A stretch of DNA of 64,000 nt from NCBI RefSeq assembly GCF_000015825.1, contig NC_009051.1, positions 1,544,695-1,608,694 on the forward strand. The letters run 5' to 3'. This stretch comes from Methanoculleus marisnigri JR1 (GTDB taxonomy: Archaea; Halobacteriota; Methanomicrobia; Methanomicrobiales; Methanoculleaceae). The notes under the pieces are model-generated. The model had not been told where the DNA came from, searched no databases, and saw only the letters and a program-made list of their open reading frames with translations. Shown piece after piece: positions 50,974 to 63,249 of this stretch; position 1 is the first letter of the stretch, and the number at the start of each line of letters is the position of its first letter. The position numbers and the translations under genes were made by a program.

Positions 50974-51366
50974 TCTATTCTCTCTTTAGGGTCTCAAATC
51001 CAGATAAAATATTGTGAGAGATCATCCGTCTCCCGGAGATCTCTTATCTCTTGGGAACCTATGAGGAACCGCAACGTATCCAGAATCCACAGGATATAGG
51101 ACTCGTTACTAGGAGGATCTACGTGATGGGTGGAAGACCATTGTTGCCATCCTGATGTCTGCCACCCTTGCTTTTCTTTATGCACATGGCTGCTATTCCC
51201 GGGACCAGAGGAATTGATCAGGCAGATTGTAGATCCATTCTAATATATGAGATTGAGATCCGGAGGCTAGATTCCGTCTAGAATCTGACATTCTTCTCTT
51301 CAAGACCCAAAATGACAGGAATAATGTTATGTATTATCTCTCATATGTCTATACTGGAGTTTTGCG
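50974..51366. other. Intergenic region at the left edge of the glycan island
   Basis: About 390 bases where composition turns visibly A/T-richer. On the minus strand, 50994-51185 is open and contains NESYILWILDTLRFLIGSQE, which could be a gene remnant, but I recognise no family and do not call it. GGATCTAC near 51115 and GTAGATCC near 51229 form a distant inverted repeat. A/T-rich promoter-like sequence and GGAG (51355-51358) precede the start at 51367. Confidence 0.4.
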
Positions 51367-52578
51367 ATGAAGGTACTCATGATAGCCGGCGACAACCCTC
51401 ATGCGATAAAAATCGGGGGAAAGCATATTCACCAGTTGTTGCTTGAGAAAGGGCTCACATCTCAGGGCATCGATGTGGATACAGTGTATCCCCGGTTTTC
51501 AGACAGTCGGGTTATAAGACTCCTCGAATACATTAAGCATGGACTACTCGCAGGCAATCCAACTCAATTTATCCCACCAGACAAACTCCAGGTTGTCTCC
51601 ATCCTGAACCAACTACGAAATACACTTGCCTCCATCGATATCGATTCCTATTCGGTCGTTCACTGCCATGATGTCGTTTCGGCTTATGCATTCCACCAAG
51701 CATTTCCTCACGCAACACTGCCCAAGATTTTAACGCTTCATGGCTATTTCGCACGCGAAGCCATCGATTACTCCAGGATTCGGACAGATAGAACGAGGAA
51801 CGCGTTTTTTGACTTTTGCTACGCCATTGAAGAGGAAGGTATCCATTGGAGTGATCGAATCATCTGCGTAGATACCAGACTTCGGGATTATGTGGACGAT
51901 ACTTTCAGTTACCCTTCCAAACAGATCTCAGTCATCCAGAACGCTACAGACACCAATTCATTCTGCCCGGTCTTGAAGAAGGAGAACGTTCAGTTCCGTG
52001 AGGAGGGGGGTTATTCCAAGGACCAATTTATCATCATAATTCCCCGGCGTCTGGTTCCAAAGAATGGTGTACGGTTTGCCATCCTGGCAATGAAGTACAT
52101 CTTGGACGACAATGTAAGATTGCTGATCCTCGGGGACGGACCTCAATATCAAGAACTGGTAGCGCTGGCCCAGGGAGATCCAAGAGTACAGTTCCTCGGT
52201 GCCGTGCCTCACGAAACCGTTGAGAGGTATTATAAAATAGCCGATGTAGTTCTGATTCCGTCGATTACATCGCACGGCATTCAAGAGGCGACATCACTCT
52301 CAATGTTGGAGGGCATGGCTTGTGGGAAGATTGTCATCTGTTCCTCCATAGGCGGCATGAAGGAAGTTATCCAAGATGGTGTGACCGGCTATCTTGTATG
52401 TGAGCAGAATCCAGAGGAGATTGCCAGCAAGATTAGCAGCATTCTCAAGGGCGGCGTTGACATCGATTTGATGGGGCGAAGAGCACGGGAGTATGTCGTT
52501 GAGCATCACTCCTATATCCCGCACGCGGTGATGGTCAGAGGCGTGTATGAGGCAGCTGATTCTGTCGATCAGGAGTGA
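51367..52578 (+). CDS. Glycosyltransferase family 4
   Basis: A 403-residue GT-B glycosyltransferase. The N-terminal half begins MKVLMIAGDNPHAIKIGGKH; the C-terminal half has the donor-binding pattern IIPRRLVPKNGVRFAI, LILGDGPQYQELV, FLGAVPHETVERYY and the E-x7-E motif in EATSLSMLEGMACGK. It probably adds a sugar to a lipid-linked or surface glycan. A GGAG ribosome binding site is present. It is six bases upstream of a GT2 gene. The A/T-richer codon use suggests acquisition. Confidence 0.88.
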   Translation: MKVLMIAGDNPHAIKIGGKHIHQLLLEKGLTSQGIDVDTVYPRFSDSRVIRLLEYIKHGLLAGNPTQFIPPDKLQVVSILNQLRNTLASIDIDSYSVVHCHDVVSAYAFHQAFPHATLPKILTLHGYFAREAIDYSRIRTDRTRNAFFDFCYAIEEEGIHWSDRIICVDTRLRDYVDDTFSYPSKQISVIQNATDTNSFCPVLKKENVQFREEGGYSKDQFIIIIPRRLVPKNGVRFAILAMKYILDDNVRLLILGDGPQYQELVALAQGDPRVQFLGAVPHETVERYYKIADVVLIPSITSHGIQEATSLSMLEGMACGKIVICSSIGGMKEVIQDGVTGYLVCEQNPEEIASKISSILKGGVDIDLMGRRAREYVVEHHSYIPHAVMVRGVYEAADSVDQE

Positions 52579-52584
52579 GAAATA

Positions 52585-53754
52585 ATGCCAGATCCTCTTG
52601 TATCTATTCTGATGCCCACATACAATGATGCAGAATACATCACAAGTGCTATCGATTCTGTTTTTGCACAAACCTACAAGAACTGGGAATTGATCATCGT
52701 CAATGATGGTTCACCCGACGACACCGAGGGAAAAATCGCTCAATATTTGAACGAGCCGCGGATCCGGTACCGGAAGCAGGAGCAAAACAGTGGCCAGCTC
52801 AATGCTCTGTATGCCGGCATTCATTTAATTACCGGAGATTTCGTTACTCTGCTCCATTCTGATGATGCATTTAGGTCAGAAAATTCCCTGGAGAATCTTG
52901 TACGGTATATGTCATGCCATACCTGCGACGGCGTCTTTGCTGACATCGCCGTAATGGACGGCAGCGGAATGAAACAGAACACTTTGAAGACGATTTCAAC
53001 TGTAAGTCCGGAGACCGTTGCAGCGCTTCTTGCTCTGCGTGGTTCCAACTGTGTCTCAGATGTCTTTTTTCTCCGGTCTGAAATATTTTTCTCCTATGTA
53101 GTTGAGAGGTACATTCGGTGGAACATGCCCTATTGGTTCCTCAGCGATCAGCAGGGGACTGGTGTCTTAAATCTGCATAAGGTAGAACCATGGTATTTAT
53201 ACCGTGTATATAGGGGAAATTACATCCATTCCAGTGCCGGAAAATTTGAGGCGAGCAATGGTTGCCTGAGATCGGTCCTTGAGATTGCCAGACATTACGA
53301 TATCCCACTTTTCTCAATATCGAGAGCCATGGCATTCCTTTCGATGAAGGTATTTCATCGTCCACTTGTTATTTACAAGGCCCGGCCCTATTCGCGGTCA
53401 TATGAAGGATTGATCCGTTCTGTCCTTCTATGCTATTATCGGGATGATGAATTAAAGGCGGACCCTTATTTCTCCTCATTGCTCGCATTTTATTCTCACT
53501 ACCCTTCAAAACGAGATATATATGTCCCAGAGGGACTGCTTGAACAGTGCAGCAGTGGGTATACGGGAAAAGATGCGAGGTTGTTTCATGCTATGATGTG
53601 TAGAGACACCCTTGATCCCCTCTCTGCTTTCCTCCTCAAAGAGGCGCAAACCGGTTTTGACAATGTCGTGGTTCCTGATGAGCAATACCTGGAGCCGCTT
53701 CGTGGAATCCTGAAGTTTTTAAATATTCAGACAACAGTCTCTCTCAGGGAATAA
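52585..53754 (+). CDS. Glycosyltransferase family 2
   Basis: A 389-residue protein with an N-terminal GT-A domain: VSILMPTYNDAEYITSAIDS, WELIIVNDGSPDDTEGKI and a DxD-like DAFRSEN preceded by HSDD near residue 93. The C-terminal 200 residues are unlike other families that I recognise and may bind the acceptor. It follows the GT4 gene with a six-base gap, so they form one unit. It converges with the epimerase gene with 12 bases between stops. Confidence 0.87.
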   Translation: MPDPLVSILMPTYNDAEYITSAIDSVFAQTYKNWELIIVNDGSPDDTEGKIAQYLNEPRIRYRKQEQNSGQLNALYAGIHLITGDFVTLLHSDDAFRSENSLENLVRYMSCHTCDGVFADIAVMDGSGMKQNTLKTISTVSPETVAALLALRGSNCVSDVFFLRSEIFFSYVVERYIRWNMPYWFLSDQQGTGVLNLHKVEPWYLYRVYRGNYIHSSAGKFEASNGCLRSVLEIARHYDIPLFSISRAMAFLSMKVFHRPLVIYKARPYSRSYEGLIRSVLLCYYRDDELKADPYFSSLLAFYSHYPSKRDIYVPEGLLEQCSSGYTGKDARLFHAMMCRDTLDPLSAFLLKEAQTGFDNVVVPDEQYLEPLRGILKFLNIQTTVSLRE

Positions 53755-53766
53755 GAGCCTTCGATG

Positions 53767-54840
53767 TCATCGGGTATGAATACTATCGACAATCTTTTGT
53801 GCAGCACGCCCATCCCCGAAGGGATTCGTCCAGTTAGTCTCTTCTTCAAGCATGGTCCCGACCGCCTGCACGATCTCCCCTGGAGTTATACCTGTAAGGA
53901 TATTCGAGCCAACTTCTATTGTCTCTGGCCTCTCAGTATTCTCCCGCAAGGTAACGCAGGGTACCCGTAAGATACAGGTCTCTTCCTGAACGCCCCCGGA
54001 ATCGGTCAGGACCAATCGTGCATTTCCCTCAAGGACTAAGAACTCCAGAAAGCCGGTAGGCGGAATGAGTGTGATATCCGGCGATACATTGAGTTGATAC
54101 TCCTCTATTCTCCTCCTTGTTCTCGGGTGTATAGGGAAGACAACCGGCATTGAGTATTCATCACGAAGTATCTCCAAGGCTTTGAGAAGGTTACGTAGCC
54201 TGAATTTGTCATCGACATTCTCCTGTCGATGGGCGGTTACCAAGAAATATCCCCGGGTTTTGAGGCCGTATTCGTCGAGAAACCCTCGCCGATCTTCTGC
54301 TATCCGGAGGTTCTGCTGTACCGCGTCAACGATGGTGTTCCCGGTTACGTAGATCTTATCAGAAGGGATACCCTCCAGAACAGCGTTGTTTCTTGATTCC
54401 TGGGTTGGGGCGAAGAGGTATTCTGAGATATGATCGGTGAGGACCCTGTTAATCTCTTCAGGCATCCGCCGGTCATGGCTCCTGAGTCCGGCCTCCACAT
54501 GCCCGACATCGATATGCAGTTTTACCGCTGCCAGTGCTCCGGCGAAAACAGTATTTGTGTCCCCCTGGACCAATACGGTGTCCGGCCTCTCCTGCATAAG
54601 TACTCTCTCAATTCCAGTCAGAATCCTTGCGGTCTGTTCACCATGGTTTCCCGAACCGACATCAAGGTAAAACTCCGGTACGGGTAACTCCAGTTCTTCG
54701 AAAAATATTTTGTCCATATCGTAAGAGTAGTGCTGGCCGGAATGAATAAGGAGGTAATCCTCCTGATTATCTCTCAGCAGCCTGATTATCGGACTCATCT
54801 TGATAATCTCAGGCCGAGTTCCAAGAACAATAGCAATCAT
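53767..54840 (-). CDS. wecB: UDP-N-acetylglucosamine 2-epimerase
   Basis: A 357-residue non-hydrolysing epimerase that interconverts UDP-GlcNAc and UDP-ManNAc. It shows IVLGTRPEIIKMSPII at the start, VQGDTNTVFAGALAA, HVEAGLRSHDRRMPEEINR and SGGVQEE, all diagnostic. ATG 54840 is preferred over ATG 54885, because a TATA-like GCATATAACC lies near 54872-54881, between the two. The ManNAc product would feed the surface glycans made by this island. Confidence 0.94.
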   Translation of the reverse strand: MIAIVLGTRPEIIKMSPIIRLLRDNQEDYLLIHSGQHYSYDMDKIFFEELELPVPEFYLDVGSGNHGEQTARILTGIERVLMQERPDTVLVQGDTNTVFAGALAAVKLHIDVGHVEAGLRSHDRRMPEEINRVLTDHISEYLFAPTQESRNNAVLEGIPSDKIYVTGNTIVDAVQQNLRIAEDRRGFLDEYGLKTRGYFLVTAHRQENVDDKFRLRNLLKALEILRDEYSMPVVFPIHPRTRRRIEEYQLNVSPDITLIPPTGFLEFLVLEGNARLVLTDSGGVQEETCILRVPCVTLRENTERPETIEVGSNILTGITPGEIVQAVGTMLEEETNWTNPFGDGRAAQKIVDSIHTR

Positions 54841-55095
54841 ATCGTCACTTTCATGTAAATTTGGCACAGGGATGGTTATATGCATTCCTCAACACTTTGG
54901 TGCGTCATCATCAACACAGGATGAGAACATACCTAAATCCTCTGGCGTTAGTGGTGCTTACGCAAATATGCGATTCACCATCTGGCTTGCAAAGAGCCTG
55001 GGCGCAAATATGGTTTTTGCCAGTCTCACCTGGGCGTCCCCTTGGTTAGATAAGGGCTATCTGTTCTTATATTGCGGACCAACGATGACTACCCT

Positions 55096-56256
55096 CTAAT
55101 GTTTAATGACACTGCTGTAGATCTGTAAAAACTTGTTTCCGACTGCCTCCCACGAATAGAACCCAGTGCCATTTGTAATCGCCTCGGCATCCCACGGCAT
55201 GTCGAGCGCTCTGACGATACTTTCCGCAAGACTCCGTGGATCTTCAGCAGCACAGAGCAGACCGGTATCATCCGGAGTTACGATCTCCTCACTCCCGCCA
55301 TTTCTCGTGGCAACAACGGGTTTCCCACAGGCCATCGCCTCTATCTGCACAACTCCGAAACTTTCTCTCAGGCTCGGCAGAACGAAGATATCCGACGCGT
55401 TCATCCATAATGGGATCTCGTTATGTGGTTTACCTCCGACAAGGCGCACGTATTGTTCAAGGCCCAACGACGATACTTTCTTTTCTAACCTGTGCTTCAA
55501 TTCGCCCCTGCCGACAATAAGACAGAGAACATCCTTCCTCTTTCGGACGACTTCAGACATTGCATCGATCAGGTACGTGTGGCCCTTGACATCCACCAGA
55601 TTTCCAACGCTGAGAATTATCTTTCGTTCCACAGGGAGGCCGAGGGATCTTCTGCACATCTCCATCTGCATCGGGCGGAATTGATCGTGCCTGAAGCCAT
55701 TCGGAATAACTTCAACCGGGGTGGTCACGTCCAGCTTCTTTATGCATTCTCGGTTGCTGTTGCTGACGGTAATAACGACCTCAGCAGCGTTGAGAATCGC
55801 TTCGATTCGCTCTTTCCACTCTGCATCCCGGAATGGCAGATCATAGATATCGTACCCATGCGCGGTGACAACGAATGGGATCCCACACTCCCCCTTCAAC
55901 TTCGCACCTACAAAACCGTTCGGCCAGACAAAATGCGCATGAATGATGTCAGGATGTGCTTTGGACTCCTGGAGTCGATTTTCGATAGTGCCATAATAAC
56001 GCTCTCCAATCCTTTTGAACTGATGGTCGCAAGGGAGATAGAAGAGAGGTATAGGATAGACAAACACGTTCTCGGGCAGATTCATTCGATCAATAAGAGT
56101 ATCCTTCCGGAACGCTTTGAGGCGAGGAACCGGAAATACCCTGGAGATCTCGGTTGCCGGGTGGTACCTGACATACACATCAGTATGCATAAACCTCCCC
56201 GCGAGCAACTCCACCGGGTCCTTGACAAACGTGAGGTAATGGTCTGAGAGAACCAT
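55096..56256 (-). CDS. Glycosyltransferase family 4
   Basis: A 386-residue GT-B enzyme. It carries DIIHAHFVWPNGFVGAKL in the acceptor half, VIPNGFRHDQF, ILSVGNLVDVKGHTYLIDAM and the E-x7-E motif ESFGVVQIEAMACGKPVVA in the donor half. Its ATG overlaps the stop of the PHP gene (TGATG), so it is translationally coupled. The upstream bases 54841-55095 hold no other gene. It closes the minus-strand run from 59450. Confidence 0.9.
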   Translation of the reverse strand: MVLSDHYLTFVKDPVELLAGRFMHTDVYVRYHPATEISRVFPVPRLKAFRKDTLIDRMNLPENVFVYPIPLFYLPCDHQFKRIGERYYGTIENRLQESKAHPDIIHAHFVWPNGFVGAKLKGECGIPFVVTAHGYDIYDLPFRDAEWKERIEAILNAAEVVITVSNSNRECIKKLDVTTPVEVIPNGFRHDQFRPMQMEMCRRSLGLPVERKIILSVGNLVDVKGHTYLIDAMSEVVRKRKDVLCLIVGRGELKHRLEKKVSSLGLEQYVRLVGGKPHNEIPLWMNASDIFVLPSLRESFGVVQIEAMACGKPVVATRNGGSEEIVTPDDTGLLCAAEDPRSLAESIVRALDMPWDAEAITNGTGFYSWEAVGNKFLQIYSSVIKH

Positions 56257-56921
56257 CAGTCTACGATCTTCCACAGGTACCGCCATCCGGATTGTATCAG
56301 TTGCAGGAACTCCCGTCGCCTCAGGTGGTGAAGAACCTGGGACTGGATTACCGCAGAACGTGAAGAGAATTCCGAGCGCAGGACCCTCTTGACCTCCCAG
56401 GTTCCGGGGTTCACCAGAGCACCCACATTTCCGATCTCACCATAGGTATGCGCGTCGCTGCCATATATACCGGGCTTTTTAAGTCCCTCAGCCAGTTGCA
56501 GCGCCCTCTCGTTCTGCTCTGCTGTAGAACGTGCGTTCCATACCTCGATGAGATCGACCGCTTTTGCCAGTCTTGGGATATCCAGGTGCGATCGATACGG
56601 GTGCGGCAGGACAGCAACGCCTCCTTGTCCTCTGATCTCTTCGATGACCTCATCCCAGCCGCGGGAACGGATCTCCTCGTTGACGAAAAGGCCGATGATG
56701 TCACCGGAATCGGTCAGGATCTCCACGCCGGGGATAACAGTCACTCCAACTTCCTTCTCCAGTTTTCTGGCATGGAGAGAACCCCGGATTGTGTCATGAT
56801 CAGTTATTGCAACGCCAGTTAAACCGACCTCCTTTGCCCGCTTCAGGATCCGTCCTGGCCTCATCAACGAGTCTTGCGAGTAATTCGAATGGATGTGGCA
56901 GTCAAAGTAGAGGTCTTCCAT
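56256..56921 (-). CDS. PHP-domain phosphoesterase-like protein
   Basis: A 221-residue protein with the PHP metal motifs: DCHIHSNYSQDSLM at residues 7-20, ITDHDTIRG near 40, a Glu in PGVEILTD, LPHPYRSH and GSDAHTYGE. Such domains hydrolyse phosphate esters or nucleotides. ATG 56921 has GGAGG five bases upstream. It overlaps the ATP-grasp gene by 20 bases and the glycosyltransferase by one base. Its role in the glycan pathway is not known. Confidence 0.85.
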   Translation of the reverse strand: MEDLYFDCHIHSNYSQDSLMRPGRILKRAKEVGLTGVAITDHDTIRGSLHARKLEKEVGVTVIPGVEILTDSGDIIGLFVNEEIRSRGWDEVIEEIRGQGGVAVLPHPYRSHLDIPRLAKAVDLIEVWNARSTAEQNERALQLAEGLKKPGIYGSDAHTYGEIGNVGALVNPGTWEVKRVLRSEFSSRSAVIQSQVLHHLRRREFLQLIQSGWRYLWKIVD

Positions 56922-58053
56922 GCGGCCTCCAGAATCTCCCCTGTTTGACACGGAGCGCAAACTCCCCAACCGTCATGCCGATCTGCAGGATGTTCGGCAC
57001 GATATCATGAGAGTCAATGTCGTAATGGATAGTCCTATCCGCAAAATCGGAGAAGAAACGCGGCAGGACTCTCGGATTTGTCACCGCATGGAATATATCC
57101 TGGGGGAATAGCCACCTGAACTTCACACCGGTTTTATAGGAAAAAACCGGTTCGATATCCCCCTCACATGCCATCCTGCAGGTCAGGTACGGGAAGTCCA
57201 CCCCTGATGCAATGGCAAGTTCAAGGGAGCCCCAGAATTTCGGGTTAATCTCCATCAGCACATACCTTCCGGTCCGCTCATCCTTCTTGAACTCGACCAT
57301 GGCCACACCGTGCCATTGCAGGCTGTCAAGCAGTTTCAGGCCCTGTTCCATCAGCACTGGGTCATAGATGCTCTCGGCAAGGGCGCTCGGTCCACCGGTG
57401 ACCGGGTATTCCCGTAGCCGCCGGTGCATGAAAATAGCCTTTGCCTCCCCATGGTTGTAGAGTGCAAAGAATCCGTATCCTCGCCCGGTGATATATTCCT
57501 GGACGATCGGCGAGAATGCCGATATTTTTTTGTACTGAGAAATGAGTTCCTCGCATGAATTCGCATATCCAACATTACCGTTCTCTCGAGCCCCTTTCAC
57601 CACCACCGGATAGGAAAGGGATTCTGCAATCCGCTCTGCATCTTCAAGCGACTGCGGGTAGAAGGTCTTTGGAATGGCGATGCCGATACTCTCGGCAAGT
57701 TGCATGGTTTTGTCTTTATTTCCGGCGAGATCGATTGAGGCTCTATCAGGTAGGGGTACCTTGATGTAGGGTTCCAGTCTTTCCTGAATCAGGGAGATCT
57801 GATCAACTGCCGCGTAACTGATCGGCAGGATCGCATCGAACTGCTCCCGTTTGACCAGATCGTACACAAACTCCGAAAAAGCGGTGTCATGCTCCGGGTT
57901 GGGAGCAAAGATCCCTTTTGAGCAATACTTTGAGTGTAGCGATACACTCAGGCGCAGATCGGAGAGCACCGTAACATTGACTCCCTTCTTCCCCAGGGAC
58001 CGGACTGATGCCAGCGTGTGTTTGAAGTTTCCGTCGGTGATAAGGACTCTCAT
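56902..58053 (-). CDS. ATP-grasp family ligase
   Basis: A 383-residue protein with an N-terminal Rossmann-like domain (MRVLITDGNFKHTLASVRSL), then the ATP-grasp fold: PVVVKGARENGNVGYANS, IVQEYITGRGYGFFALY and the metal-binding YVLMEINPKFWGSLELA. Such ligases join a carboxylate to an amine through an acyl phosphate. Placed within glycan genes, it may amidate a uronic acid or attach an amino acid to a sugar, which is inference. Its ATG overlaps the deacetylase stop (ATGA). Confidence 0.87.
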   Translation of the reverse strand: MRVLITDGNFKHTLASVRSLGKKGVNVTVLSDLRLSVSLHSKYCSKGIFAPNPEHDTAFSEFVYDLVKREQFDAILPISYAAVDQISLIQERLEPYIKVPLPDRASIDLAGNKDKTMQLAESIGIAIPKTFYPQSLEDAERIAESLSYPVVVKGARENGNVGYANSCEELISQYKKISAFSPIVQEYITGRGYGFFALYNHGEAKAIFMHRRLREYPVTGGPSALAESIYDPVLMEQGLKLLDSLQWHGVAMVEFKKDERTGRYVLMEINPKFWGSLELAIASGVDFPYLTCRMACEGDIEPVFSYKTGVKFRWLFPQDIFHAVTNPRVLPRFFSDFADRTIHYDIDSHDIVPNILQIGMTVGEFALRVKQGRFWRPHGRPLL

Positions 58054-59450
58054 ACAAAAACCACGCTCACCCGCTCTCTATCGCACTTGATATCCACATA
58101 CCCTTCGCCGCAGATGTAATCAGCATCAATATGCCGAACCCGCTCCGGATCGATGTGAACCCGGATGCGCAACGGCGGCAACGACCGGGCCGACTCAAGG
58201 CCTGCAACCGTGATCTTGAAGCCGTCTTTGGTTTTCGAATATTCCAGATTGGCATTACGGCGCATCCTGAACCAGTCGACGATATCGACTGCACGGGTGA
58301 TCCAGGCGTTGTCTGACTTTGCCCTGTTGATTATACCCGTATACACGCCACCCCAGTCACGGGGGGCAGCCAGGCAGTCGCTGTGCCAGAGAACCGTGAC
58401 GACACCGCCGTACTGCAACGCATGATCGAGGATCTCGTTGCAGGTCTGATACGCCTCGCCCTCATCCAGACCCAGGCAGTCTGCCCTTTCGCACCCCCTC
58501 TCCGTCGTAAGCCAGCAGTGCCTCCCGAACAGGCTGACGTCCTGGATGTGGAGAGGGAGTTCCAACAGCCTCTCAACCCCACGGGGCCGGTAAACTTGCA
58601 GCGTCCCAGCCCGGAATCCGACGTCTTCGTTGTATCCGAACGTGGAATCGTAATCATAGCCCGCATCATCAAGAATCTGCCACGTGCCTTCATCAAAATG
58701 CAGCCAATGCACCCGTGTACCCACCCGGACTCTTGCATCCCTCAGAAGCGACATGCGTTCAGCGTCGGCACTGGCTTTATCAATCCAGTTATCTATGCCG
58801 TGAACCCCCACTTCCCAGCCGCCGGCGGTCAGTTCCTCGATCGGAACATCCTCGATCGAGTAGTATCCGGCACGAATCTGCGGGGAGCCGATCCCCGCAT
58901 GACCGCTCTGGGGCAGGAAGTAGAACGTGGATTTCACCTGATGCTTCTCCTCAAGCACTCTCCAGGTCTCGAAGAGATCCCAGGGATCCATCCCAAGGCC
59001 GAATTTCGCGAGCGCGATCCTGACTCCCTCAATGAATCTCCGTTGAAGGAAGCAGTTGTAGGTCGCATAGAGGACGGATGGGAGAGACCGCTCTCTGACG
59101 GAGGTGACATCCACATCGTGCGTAAGCGCAAGCGAGTAGGTGTACCCCCACGGTATTGGCGGAATTTCGATCAGCGGAGAAAAACGCTTGATCTGCTGGC
59201 GCAACGTGTCCAGGTACTCTTCGCAGAGCGGCCTGCGGTTACGAGGGAGCCCCTCGTTGAGCATATCAGCAATCTTTTTGATCAGGTCATTATCGGTGAG
59301 GTCAATTCGGTTACAGGTCTCTGGAATATGCCCGGTTTTTGTTATGACAACATCATACCTGGATGTTAGGGTATACCATTCCCAGGGAACCTTCAGTAAC
59401 TGAAACACTTCCTCAACTGCATACTCATCGTCATGTTGCACTCCAATCAT
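58050..59450 (-). CDS. Polysaccharide deacetylase-like protein (NodB fold)
   Basis: A 466-residue protein. The NodB-like region contains LTHDVDVTSVRER near residues 108-120 (catalytic Asp and metal Asp), FYFLPQSGHAG, GWEVGVHGIDNW (metal His) and TVLWHSDC near residue 375. A separate N-terminal domain of about 100 residues and a C-terminal beta domain flank it. It is soluble, with no signal peptide, so it may act on a cytoplasmic lipid-linked sugar. It is the first gene of the minus-strand run to 55096. Confidence 0.82.
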   Translation of the reverse strand: MIGVQHDDEYAVEEVFQLLKVPWEWYTLTSRYDVVITKTGHIPETCNRIDLTDNDLIKKIADMLNEGLPRNRRPLCEEYLDTLRQQIKRFSPLIEIPPIPWGYTYSLALTHDVDVTSVRERSLPSVLYATYNCFLQRRFIEGVRIALAKFGLGMDPWDLFETWRVLEEKHQVKSTFYFLPQSGHAGIGSPQIRAGYYSIEDVPIEELTAGGWEVGVHGIDNWIDKASADAERMSLLRDARVRVGTRVHWLHFDEGTWQILDDAGYDYDSTFGYNEDVGFRAGTLQVYRPRGVERLLELPLHIQDVSLFGRHCWLTTERGCERADCLGLDEGEAYQTCNEILDHALQYGGVVTVLWHSDCLAAPRDWGGVYTGIINRAKSDNAWITRAVDIVDWFRMRRNANLEYSKTKDGFKITVAGLESARSLPPLRIRVHIDPERVRHIDADYICGEGYVDIKCDRERVSVVFV

Positions 59451-59861
59451 GTCTTTTTATGCCTCGTTTGAGATGTACAGTTCTTGCAGATTTCCCGCAT
59501 CCTGATATGTCACAATAGATCGATTCAGACAAATCAATTTGATAGGCATTAACTTATACCTTATCAAAATACGGAACTCGTGGGATTATGGTGTAATTTA
59601 TGATTTTTTTGAATCAACTATGATAGTAGATACAATTCACGGCTGTATGCACTAATATATCCCACAATCACCCGGTACGCACCCTCTTCATCTATCCCGG
59701 GTAACACTGCCTCCTCGGCCCCCCAGTTCATTCACACAACCCCTCAAACGCTCCACCAAGCAGCCAACCGCCCATGCGACCCCATCCAGTTCCACCTGAT
59801 CGCCCTGTCCCCCAACCGTTTACTTAAACAATGAGAACGCGAGTATACCTTCCTCGATCTG
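59451..59861. other. Divergent intergenic region with a G-poor stretch
   Basis: About 410 bases. The left 190 bases are A/T-rich and hold the promoter area of the deacetylase gene. From about 59660 to 59830 the plus strand is C- and A-rich and unusually poor in G. TTTACTTAAACAATG near 59819-59833 is TATA-like for the gene at 59862. No gene supported. Confidence 0.45.
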
Positions 59862-61049
59862 ATGGTCCCTCGCAGTATCGTCAATGACGTTCGATCGCTA
59901 GCCTACGATATTGCCACACTCATCGTTTCGGCACTATCGCAGTTCATACCGAAAAATGACCATAAAATCCTATTCTTCTCAGCACCCGACTTCTCCGATA
60001 ATGCAAAGTACGTCTACGACAAAATGCTCGAATCGGGCTTCAATGAAACCTACCAGTTGATTTGGTGCGTCTACTCGCCGGCCCCCGCAAACCACGTCAT
60101 CCGCCGCTCACGTGAATACCTCTACCACGCGCTGACGGCAAAGTATATCATCAGCACCCACGGAACACCCGCCTGGAAGTCCAGAAACCAGGTCAGCATC
60201 GAACTATGGCACGGCCTCCCCCTGAAGACGATCGGGCACTTTGCCGATACTGACTACCCGAACGCCGCCGCGAGACTCTCCGCGGCACAGAGGCTGCGGG
60301 GGTTTGCGAACTCCGTGGACTATCTCATCACAACCTCGGAATTCGAGCGGATGATCTTCTCTTCCGCTTTCCTGATCGATCCGGGGAGAGTCCTGATCCT
60401 CGGGCAGCCCCGGTGCGATGCTCTTTACAGGCCCGGAGCTTCCGGGATAGACGCACTCTGCCGTATCCTCGACCGGAACGATATTGTTAGGAAGAGGAAC
60501 CTGCTGTATCTTCCCACCTTCCGGGAGTACGATTCCGGTGCGAGCCGTAAAATTCTGGAAGAGATCCTCGCAAGCGAGAAGTTTCGCCGGTTCGTGAAGG
60601 ACGAGAACCTGCTGTTCATCTGCAAGCCTCACTCTCACGATGAGGGTGCGTTTCAGGCGTACAACGGAGAGCACATCCACATACTCTTAAACGATGACCT
60701 GCAGAAATCCGGTAATACCATCTACGACTTCCTGAACGCCGTCGACATCCTGGTTACCGATTACTCGTCGGTGTACTTCGACTACCTTCACCTGAACCGG
60801 CCAATCGTCTTCCACGTGCCCGACATTGAGGATTATCGGGCGCAGAGAGGCTTTATTCTCGAACCGTTTCGCGACTGGGCGCCGGGGGAGATCTCGACCG
60901 ATGTCGATGAACTGATAGGAGCCCTTACGAGTACCCTCGCCGGCCCGGACAGGTGGGAGCCGGAGAGGGCCAGGCTCCGACGGTTATTGTTCAGGTACAC
61001 CGACGATCTCGCATCTGAAAGAGTCTGCAGACTGATCGAGCAACATTAA
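59862..61049 (+). CDS. CDP-glycerol:glycerophosphotransferase (TagB/TagF-like)
   Basis: A 395-residue protein of the teichoic-acid glycerophosphotransferase family. It has ILFFSAPDFSDNAKYVY, the acceptor-domain motif ISTHGTPAW, the catalytic ELWHGLPLKTIGH near residue 110, LILGQPRCDAL, FICKPHSHDEG and the C-terminal nucleotide-binding TDYSSVYFDYLHLNRP. These enzymes transfer polyol phosphate from CDP-glycerol or a similar donor to a lipid-linked acceptor on the inner membrane face. A nucleotidyltransferase and a GpsA-like dehydrogenase lie downstream. Confidence 0.88.
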   Translation: MVPRSIVNDVRSLAYDIATLIVSALSQFIPKNDHKILFFSAPDFSDNAKYVYDKMLESGFNETYQLIWCVYSPAPANHVIRRSREYLYHALTAKYIISTHGTPAWKSRNQVSIELWHGLPLKTIGHFADTDYPNAAARLSAAQRLRGFANSVDYLITTSEFERMIFSSAFLIDPGRVLILGQPRCDALYRPGASGIDALCRILDRNDIVRKRNLLYLPTFREYDSGASRKILEEILASEKFRRFVKDENLLFICKPHSHDEGAFQAYNGEHIHILLNDDLQKSGNTIYDFLNAVDILVTDYSSVYFDYLHLNRPIVFHVPDIEDYRAQRGFILEPFRDWAPGEISTDVDELIGALTSTLAGPDRWEPERARLRRLLFRYTDDLASERVCRLIEQH

Positions 61050-61077
61050 TCCGATCCGGTAAAAGCCGTTCCGAAAT

Positions 61078-61270
61078 CCTCCGGCAGGGAGACACCGCTC
61101 ACACCCCCGGTGCTCACGCTCACGATGTTCGCGGTCCGACGGCCTCCGGCCCTCTCAAACTCCGGCCCTTTGGCCGTCACTGTTCGAAAATTGCTGCGCA
61201 ATTTTCTCGAACTCCGCCTGCCCCCCTGGGGCACGCGTCGTTGCTCGCACCTCCCGGAGGTTATACACCT
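61078..61270 (-). repeat. Cluster of hairpin modules, locus D
   Basis: Read on the minus strand, CGGAGTTCGAG is followed by AAAATTGC-GCA-GCAATTTT (arms 61187-61194 and 61198-61205), CGGAGTTTGAG by AGGGCC-GGA-GGCC, and GCGTGAG by CACC-GGG-GGTG. The flanks match the modules in copies A and B while the stems differ. The core hairpin and inverted ends are absent. The remaining bases to 61516 show no gene. Confidence 0.6.
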
Positions 61271-61525
61271 ACTGGACGGATCTCCCCGAATCGGCTGCCG
61301 AGTGAAAAATGCTGCCGGGGTAAAAGCCTTACTCATCCCGGACCACGACACAGTCCACACGGCAGAAATCCCGCATCTAATCGCTCAGCACGAGGGAGCC
61401 CCGAAGCCTGCAGACTGTTCCGGGAGTGCCTCGACTGCCCGAGAGGTTGAGACACCCAGTTGGCAGCCAAATCTTCTTATAACCGGACGGAGTGTAACCC
61501 TCGACAAACCGGGTCGGTGTTTCGT

Positions 61526-62272
61526 TTGAACGGGATAATCCTGGCAGCAGGTCGCGGGCAAAGACTAGGCAGAGACATCGATCTCGAGAAGATCGGCCCG
61601 AAATGTCTGCTTCCTATCGACAGTCGGACACTGCTGGAACGAACGGTCTCGGATCTGGTATCATTCGGTGTGGATACGATCACCATCGTCGTTGGATACC
61701 AGGCAGAGAGGGTACAGGAAGCGTGCGTGGCACTGGGGAGGAAGTATAATGTCCGATTCGGTTTGGTCCGTAATGACGCATATCTCTCGACCAATACGGC
61801 CTGCTCTCTCCAGATTGGGCTATCCGGCATTCATGACGATGTTGTCATCTTTAACGGCGATGTGCTGTACGATCGCGCCATCTTGGATGATTTACTGAAG
61901 ATAAACCGGACCGCGATCGCGGTCGACAATACGAAACCGCTCACCGGAGAATCGTTCAAAGTGAGGATATTAAACAGCCGGATTGAAGAGATGGGAAAGA
62001 CCGTCCCGGTAGAACGGGCGACAGGAGAGTTCATCGGTATCTCGAAGATCGCCGGCAGGGATATCGGCGAAGCAAAAAGGCTGCTGAATGCCCTGGTTTC
62101 GGGGGATCCGAATAACTACTACGACTTCATCTACCAGTCCCTTTCAGAGAGCGGGAACCTTGCATACTCGTTCACGAACGGACTGAAATGGACGGAAATC
62201 GACGATATCCGGGACCTCAGGTATGCCGAGAGCATTGCAGGCATAGCCTGCGGTGCACGGGGGCGGTTTTGA
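61526..62272 (+). CDS. Nucleotidyltransferase of the sugar/choline-phosphate type
   Basis: A 248-residue protein starting NGIILAAGRGQRLG, the nucleotide-binding loop, followed by KIGPKCLLPI, STNTACSLQIG and VIFNGDVLYD, where the Asp binds metal. The S-T-N-T-x-x-S-L segment recalls LicC-like phosphocholine cytidylyltransferases. The most probable product is a CDP- or other NDP-activated polyol, choline or sugar. The start is TTG 61526, or GTG 61517 three codons earlier; no ATG is suitably placed. Its stop overlaps the next gene's ATG (TGATG). Confidence 0.8.
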   Translation: MNGIILAAGRGQRLGRDIDLEKIGPKCLLPIDSRTLLERTVSDLVSFGVDTITIVVGYQAERVQEACVALGRKYNVRFGLVRNDAYLSTNTACSLQIGLSGIHDDVVIFNGDVLYDRAILDDLLKINRTAIAVDNTKPLTGESFKVRILNSRIEEMGKTVPVERATGEFIGISKIAGRDIGEAKRLLNALVSGDPNNYYDFIYQSLSESGNLAYSFTNGLKWTEIDDIRDLRYAESIAGIACGARGRF

Positions 62273-63249
62273 TGATATCGAAAGTCGGGGTCATCGGCGC
62301 CGGAAGCATGGGCACCGCCGTCGCGCAGAGCATATCCAGAAGAGTCGGAGAAGTGATCGTGTTCGGGAGGAGACAGGAGATTGTCGATTCGATAAACACC
62401 GACAATTGCAACAAACGTTATTTCCCGGGCCTGCGCCTGAACCCCAATATACATGCAAGATTGATGGGCGATAGACAGGGTCTCGCGGACTGCGAGGCTG
62501 TAATCATCGCTGTGCCCTCAAGTGAAGTCCGGTTTATCGTTAACGCTACCCACGACGAACTCACAGGCAAGTTCCTCGTCACGGTAGCCAAAGGGCTGGA
62601 ATATCCGTCGCTCAAAACGATGAGCGAAATTATCCGCGATGAAACGGGCAACCCGGACATAGCCTGTTTCTCAGGGCCGACCTTCGCCGATGAGGTTGCC
62701 TACGGCCATATTGCCGGCGCTACGATAGGTGCCGGCGGGGATCCATCGCTGAGAGCAACGATCTCGAATCTTTTCGGTGAATTCATCCTGGATTTTTCGG
62801 ATGATATCAGGGCAGTCGAGTTATGCGGCGTGCTGAAGAACGTATACGCCATCGGAACGGGGATGTGGGATTCGGTTTACGGCAACCATAACGAGCACTA
62901 CACCTTCCTCAACATGTGCTACAAGGAGATGTGCATCTTTTTACGGGCGATCTCTCGCGATAAAGGGATATTCACAAAATTCTGCTGCTTTGGGGATTTC
63001 AACCTGACCGCCAACGTGGATAAAAGCCGCAACCGGACATTGGGGCTGATGGTCGGCAAAAAGATCGTAAAAACCCCCTATTTAGAGTCCGGCGTGACGT
63101 TCGAAGGCTCAAGATCTGTTAAAGGGATAATTGAACTGGCCGAGAACCACAGTATCGATATGCCCATTGCACGATTCGTCTACGATGTTTTGAGCGGGAA
63201 TAACAACGTGCGGGAATCGGTCGATGGGGTCATCAGGAAAGCGCCCTGA
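62272..63249 (+). CDS. GpsA-like NAD(P)-dependent glycerol-3-phosphate dehydrogenase
   Basis: A 325-residue dehydrogenase. GVIGAGSMGTAVAQS at residues 5-19 binds NAD(P); NKRYFPGLRLNPNI, AVPS, AKGLE, SGPTFADEVAYGHIA, the catalytic Lys in CGVLKNVYAIGTGM and SRNRTLG all match bacterial GpsA. The enzyme reduces dihydroxyacetone phosphate to sn-glycerol 3-phosphate, the enantiomer not used for archaeal membrane lipids. It is coupled to the nucleotidyltransferase, so it probably supplies precursor for a CDP-glycerol-like donor. The exact substrate is inferred. Confidence 0.85.
   Translation: MISKVGVIGAGSMGTAVAQSISRRVGEVIVFGRRQEIVDSINTDNCNKRYFPGLRLNPNIHARLMGDRQGLADCEAVIIAVPSSEVRFIVNATHDELTGKFLVTVAKGLEYPSLKTMSEIIRDETGNPDIACFSGPTFADEVAYGHIAGATIGAGGDPSLRATISNLFGEFILDFSDDIRAVELCGVLKNVYAIGTGMWDSVYGNHNEHYTFLNMCYKEMCIFLRAISRDKGIFTKFCCFGDFNLTANVDKSRNRTLGLMVGKKIVKTPYLESGVTFEGSRSVKGIIELAENHSIDMPIARFVYDVLSGNNNVRESVDGVIRKAP

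Follow-up and report, generated by a model that had tools for sequence, protein, structure and literature searches.

Three genes that lie together in the genome of the methanogen Methanoculleus marisnigri JR1 probably form a dedicated pathway that places glycerol phosphate on a cell-surface glycan, and CDP (cytidine diphosphate)-glycerol is, we think, its most likely donor. The genes encode a PF04464-family transferase, a LicC-fold nucleotidyltransferase and a GpsA-type dehydrogenase and occupy positions 59862-63249 of the stretch analyzed (the window, 64,000 nucleotides, bases 1,544,695-1,608,694 of a genome that is a single contig of 2,478,101 bases). The pathway rests on the gene families, active-site residues, dedicated co-occurrence and conserved coupling. 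A preliminary description of this DNA had assigned the same identities to three open reading frames (ORFs) here, and profile matches to PF04464, PF12804 and PF01210/PF07479 bear these out:

59862..61049, + strand: PF04464 CDP-polyol phosphotransferase of TagB/TarF size, 395 amino acids; H117/H257 align with TagF H444/H584, and TDYSSVYFDY lies at 299-308
61526..62272, + strand: LicC/PntC-like nucleotidyltransferase, a predicted CTP:glycerol-3-phosphate cytidylyltransferase, 248 amino acids; TTG start; R13, K26, D112, K158 and D226 conserved
62272..63249, + strand: GpsA-type NAD(P)-dependent glycerol-3-phosphate dehydrogenase, 325 amino acids, of a separate nucleotidyltransferase-linked subfamily; K107, K189, N190, D242, T246, R253 and N254 intact
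62270..62274, + strand: TGATG junction, where the stop codon of the nucleotidyltransferase and the start codon of GpsA overlap by 1 nucleotide

In the proposed pathway, the GpsA-type enzyme would first reduce dihydroxyacetone phosphate to sn-glycerol 3-phosphate, which is not the enantiomer used in archaeal lipids. The LicC-fold enzyme would then react sn-glycerol 3-phosphate, which we infer to be its substrate, with cytidine triphosphate (CTP), giving CDP-glycerol and pyrophosphate, and the PF04464 enzyme would use CDP-glycerol as donor to place glycerol phosphate on a hydroxyl of a putative membrane lipid-linked glycan, probably in one or a few units. The acceptor glycan would be built by the products of the surrounding glycosyltransferase, UDP-N-acetylmannosamine (UDP-ManNAc) and flippase genes, with the product presumably displayed outside the cell. 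The previously predicted path from dihydroxyacetone phosphate through glycerol 3-phosphate and CDP-glycerol to a phosphodiester-linked surface glycan is still the most likely reading. The poly-glycerophosphate with which that prediction had ended is not retained, as the transferase is TarF-like and lacks the N-terminal domain of the polymerases.

The co-occurrence of the three genes was followed in 232 genomes of the order Methanomicrobiales. The GpsA C-terminal domain scored above cut-off in 14 of these, and a fifteenth (G068) carries a GpsA gene truncated at a contig end. A cytidylyltransferase-like gene lies directly upstream of GpsA in 15/15 GpsA genomes, all of which also harbor a strong PF04464 gene, compared with 21 of the 232 overall (naive hypergeometric P of 4e-19 overall and 9e-9 within the genus, relatedness uncorrected). 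True orthologues of the nucleotidyltransferase (>60% identity) are found in 14/232 genomes, each followed directly by GpsA, and in G067 a fusion of a nucleotidyltransferase with a haloacid dehalogenase (HAD)-type protein stands in their place. A different PF04464 orthologue (about 36% identity) is present in G011, G073 and G079; its placement differs too, yet it is still near the pair, at 15 nucleotides to about 8 kb, which provides independent evidence of functional linkage. Recurrence in 15 Methanomicrobiales genomes, and also in unrelated lineages, puts the arrangement far beyond chance. Thus, the question raised in the preliminary description, whether the trio occurs together elsewhere, is answered affirmatively, and its view of the set as dedicated agrees with the finding of GpsA in the order only in the trio context (15/232 genomes).

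The same pairing extends beyond the order. A scan with the GpsA alignment of genomes outside it uncovered relatives with 41-47% identity in a Melainabacterium (L083), in deltaproteobacterial/myxococcal metagenome-assembled genomes (MAGs; L084 and L086), in an alphaproteobacterial MAG (L085) and in Methanobacteriaceae 41_258 (L087), and a phylum-wide search added a further subfamily member, G255. In a maximum-likelihood tree this GpsA subfamily forms a separate clade, split from ordinary GpsA with 100/100 support, that spans Methanomicrobiales genomes, another archaeal family, Methanobacteriaceae, Myxococcota, Alphaproteobacteria and Melainabacteria; it does not include the phylum's other archaeal GpsA (family f9, probably Archaeoglobaceae). 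The subfamily profile separates the two groups, with scores of at least 298 bits for full-length members and no more than about 161 for ordinary GpsA, and where other GpsA have the usual N-A-K/R-A-A-L motif the clade has a specific NNEHxxFLNxCxKEM segment. A nucleotidyltransferase gene neighbors GpsA at every subfamily locus with intact flanks, in seven lineages, and at 0 of about 60 ordinary GpsA loci; L082, a contig-edge fragment without flanks, was left out of this count. A PF04464 gene is also next to or near the pair in L083, L084 and G255. In G255 (L189), from another archaeal family, nucleotidyltransferase, GpsA and PF04464 genes are consecutive in this order, and in the Melainabacterium the PF04464, Wzx, nucleotidyltransferase, GpsA and Wzz genes are clustered.

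The GpsA-type protein matches both glycerol-3-phosphate dehydrogenase (GPDH) domains (PF01210, E 1.3e-32; PF07479, E 1.6e-30), and its best NCBIfam score, 207 bits, lies below the subfamily cut-off of 257. When human GPDH numbering is transferred by motif, K120, K204, N205, D260, T264, R269 and N270 correspond to K107, K189, N190, D242, T246, R253 and N254, identical here and conserved through the subfamily. In human GPDH these seven residues position the carbonyl and phosphate of dihydroxyacetone phosphate, with R269/N270 binding the free phosphate dianion (PMC12874384). Their retention, in particular that of the phosphate-binding pair, favors a free phosphomonoester as substrate and hence reduction before activation.

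The nucleotidyltransferase matches PF12804 (E 1.8e-13) and carries the LAAGxGxRL...PK signature, and its catalytic R13 and K26 and metal-binding D112 and D226 are invariant in 21 homologues. By sequence, the solved structures nearest to it are PntC, LicC, 6plj (named only "nucleotidyl transferase") and an archaeal inositol-1-phosphate cytidylyltransferase; the AlphaFold model (mean predicted local distance difference test score, pLDDT, 91.4) is matched best in Foldseek by PntC (9.8e-19) and LicC (1.4e-15). Because these nearest relatives and model matches (PntC, LicC and inositol-1-phosphate cytidylyltransferases) all take CTP and a small phospho-alcohol or phosphonate, use of CTP is likely. 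The sequence does not match PF01467 and lacks HxGH, which together with RTxGISTT marks TagD-type enzymes, so that the enzyme is LicC/PntC-like and not TagD-like; it is the gene context, and not homology, that points to glycerol phosphate. With the LicC (phosphocholine) and PntC (2-aminoethylphosphonate) cytidylyltransferases of PF12804 (PMC6697681) it shares the fold, signature residues, a predicted small phospho-substrate and the proposed logic of surface decoration, but the identity is about 21-23%, and the enzyme here is paired with GpsA. Phosphonate activation of the PntC type was rejected, as phosphoenolpyruvate (PEP) mutase is absent from the genome. As a side observation, a 500-residue fusion of nucleotidyltransferase and NagD-type HAD phosphatase replaces the stand-alone enzyme at L043:5013-6512, in a Methanoculleus-like MAG, and at L083:5478-6983, in the Melainabacterium.

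The transferase matches PF04464 with E 2.2e-76 and 257.7 bits (curated cut-off 22.1) over profile positions 5-366 of 367, and the two histidines and the DYSS donor-binding motif are common to the 13 relatives aligned. It is a single GT-B unit that aligns only to the C-terminal part of TagF-type polymerases; the N-terminal domain of the ~700-residue polymerases, and with it the two-domain architecture of TagF/TarL (about 560-730 amino acids), is not present. Its best equivalog is TarF (101 bits, against an equivalog cut-off of 550 bits), an enzyme that adds one or a few units (PMC11666461). Taken with its size, this best match suggests that the transferase adds one or a few units, as TarF does. 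The wall teichoic acid transferases TagB, TarF, TagF and TarL share with it the family, catalytic histidines, DYSS motif and expected CDP-polyol donor, but the protein here is single-domain, scores far under every equivalog cut-off and resides in an archaeal host without peptidoglycan.

Several observations weigh against this interpretation. Relatedness inflates the co-occurrence counts within Methanoculleus. The stem of the GpsA clade is long (1.68 changes per column), so its substrate may have shifted. The nucleotidyltransferase is only about 21-23% identical to PntC and LicC, and among its solved relatives found, none acts on glycerol phosphate. The member in L085 lies apart from any recognizable glycan gene; that pair (L085:6238-7984) has genes for glycyl-tRNA synthetase and for a polyprenyl synthase nearby, and its GpsA is the only one found in this alphaproteobacterial MAG, whose completeness is unknown. 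Lastly, six genomes have a strong PF04464 gene but no GpsA, and the transferase family is therefore not tied to glycerol. In one of these, G033, an IspD fusion with a short-chain dehydrogenase/reductase (SDR), of the CDP-ribitol type (as Bcs1), adjoins the PF04464 gene; at L063:7159-9784 an ABC transporter lies near such an arrangement. In G105 and G207 the PF04464 gene has a nucleotidyltransferase, an SDR and a DUF2284 protein as neighbors; G090 has a nucleotidyltransferase 2.8 kb away; the contig ends in G062; and G098 has a broken PF04464 gene. PF04464 transferase, nucleotidyltransferase, SDR reductase and DUF2284 protein genes stand in series at L044:8221-11383 and L045:7761-11022. Methanogens thus apparently combine this transferase family with interchangeable polyol modules, and this apparent swapping is the main reason for caution over glycerol itself. 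A broken PF04464 gene, 77-86% identical to that of the window, lies at L066:2844-4013 in a different family of the order, without GpsA, and suggests horizontal transfer and decay.

If glycerol were indeed not the polyol, the diverged GpsA-type enzyme would reduce another keto-phosphate, such as a phosphorylated tetrulose or pentulose, and the CDP-polyol that the pair makes for transfer by the PF04464 enzyme would be a different one. The long stem and clade-specific segment of GpsA, the use of CDP-ribitol by PF04464 enzymes such as TarL, and the pairing of the transferase family in related methanogens with other reductase/cytidylyltransferase sets (the L063 fusion and the SDR-nucleotidyltransferase combination of L044/L045) are all in keeping with this idea. 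However, every residue that contacts dihydroxyacetone phosphate and its phosphate is kept, and we regard a different polyol as unlikely, though with some real chance.

We assign a lower probability to a true teichoic-type poly(glycerol phosphate), a long chain built by a processive transferase, which appears distinctly improbable. TagF polymerases do belong to PF04464, and the methanogen Methanobrevibacter ruminantium combines high wall phosphate with homologues of teichoic genes (PMC2812497). Against such a polymer stand the 395-residue single-domain transferase, with TarF as its nearest equivalog, and the presence of only one PF04464 gene in the genome, which leaves no separate primer and polymerase. 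In addition, WecG/TagA (PF03808) and the LytR-CpsA-Psr (LCP) ligase family (PF03816) had no match in the genome, with positive controls, making a classical wall teichoic acid unlikely. The teichoic-acid-like character that the preliminary description had given the locus is therefore not upheld, the cytidylyltransferase likewise not being TagD-type.

The order of the first two steps might also be reversed, such that the nucleotidyltransferase makes CDP-dihydroxyacetone from dihydroxyacetone phosphate, and reduction by the GpsA-type enzyme follows to give CDP-glycerol. The gene order, nucleotidyltransferase then reductase, would fit, and there is precedent in HS5.18/HS5.17 (CDP-6-glucitol) and Mnp1/Mnp2 (CDP-mannitol), which resemble the present pair as nucleotidyltransferase-reductase sets dedicated to a CDP-polyol (PMC10918830). 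Those enzymes, however, are IspD- and SDR-type and act on fructose 6-phosphate, and the equivalents of R269/N270 are invariant here, whereas a CDP-linked substrate would lack the free dianion that they bind in GPDH; we consider this route very unlikely. Finally, that GpsA merely supplies glycerol 3-phosphate for lipids, osmolytes or redox balance and sits beside the other genes incidentally is hardly credible: it is a housekeeping lipid enzyme in bacteria, and a subfamily member is the sole GpsA found in the alphaproteobacterial MAG, but GpsA was not found in 217/232 genomes of the order, the subfamily member was never found without the nucleotidyltransferase at loci with intact flanks, and in G232 it coexists with a canonical GpsA. 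The Melainabacterium has a canonical GpsA, and a housekeeping role was rejected on distribution and tree. As the genome contains a candidate glycerol 1-phosphate dehydrogenase (Fe-ADH_2) and no glycerol kinase, use of GpsA-made glycerol 3-phosphate for lipids or catabolism is unlikely, and glycerol catabolism was rejected on the latter ground.

A close known parallel to glycerol phosphate transfer onto a surface glycan is the synthesis of poly(glycosylglycerol phosphate) capsules in Actinobacillus pleuropneumoniae (Cps3B/Cps3D and Cps7A-D; PMC8262930, PMC11666461), where PF04464 transferases also act on a surface glycan from a CDP-glycerol donor. There, the cytidylyltransferase is TagD-type and glycerol 3-phosphate comes from the cellular GpsA; here, there is a dedicated GpsA gene and a LicC-fold enzyme. 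Homologues of teichoic-type genes in M. ruminantium (PMC2812497) and GpsA in Methanomicrobia (PMC5059525) are already known. The latter survey reported GpsA in Archaeoglobi, Methanobacteria and Methanomicrobia, gave no function, and probably includes these same Methanomicrobia genes. In the literature searched we found nothing direct on teichoic or glycerol-phosphate chemistry in Methanoculleus and, for methanogens generally, only the M. ruminantium report; nor did we find the GpsA clade, its exclusive cross-domain pairing with a LicC-fold nucleotidyltransferase or its restriction to the trio context in the order described. We see roughly an even chance that the distinct GpsA clade and the tandem LicC-fold glycerol 3-phosphate cytidylyltransferase represent a previously undescribed cross-domain CDP-glycerol module, through which the surface glycan of some archaea would carry the bacterial glycerol-phosphate enantiomer while the membranes hold the opposite one. 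Archaeal GpsA has been counted in "lipid divide" debates without a known role (PMC5059525). The trio suggests a role for this puzzling bacterial-type enzyme in some archaea, and tying it to surface-glycan chemistry would mean that these genes no longer count as evidence for mixed membranes, and makes the question of its role open to testing in a methanogen that can be cultured. A further prediction is that archaea and bacteria share a new family of glycerol-phosphate cytidylyltransferases, distinct from TagD and with a recognizable partner dehydrogenase.

The translational coupling proposed for the last two genes holds as a sequence feature, as the nucleotidyltransferase TGA and the GpsA ATG have one base in common, and the junction is TGATG or ATGA in most related archaeal loci. 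Comparison with orthologues favors TTG 61526 as the nucleotidyltransferase start (the longest ORF begins at 61460) and ATG 62272 for GpsA (the longest ORF, from 62188, overlaps the preceding gene). The transferase is not tightly linked to the pair, with a spacing of 186-480 nucleotides across orthologous loci. The remaining features of the locus are as follows:

61050..61525, no strand: GC-rich gap between the transferase and the gene pair, containing short repeats that are scattered through the genome
63344..64000, - strand: GT4 (family 4) glycosyltransferase, context only, continuing past the window edge; many relatives also have it conserved next to the trio
53767..54885, - strand: UDP-N-acetylglucosamine (UDP-GlcNAc) 2-epimerase (WecB), context, in the surrounding surface-glycan island

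The neighborhood encodes glycosyltransferases, UDP-GlcNAc 2-epimerases, a UDP-sugar dehydrogenase and a Wzx-type flippase, and G+C content of about 46-57% in window 51000-60000, against 58-66% in the preceding 7 kb, marks the surface-glycan island. The gap was rejected as an additional gene, since it contains short dispersed repeats and its 139-residue ORF was matched in one other locus only; its repeats (window 61080-61340) are also present at a dozen further genomic sites, among them a tandem group close to genome position 1,051,900.

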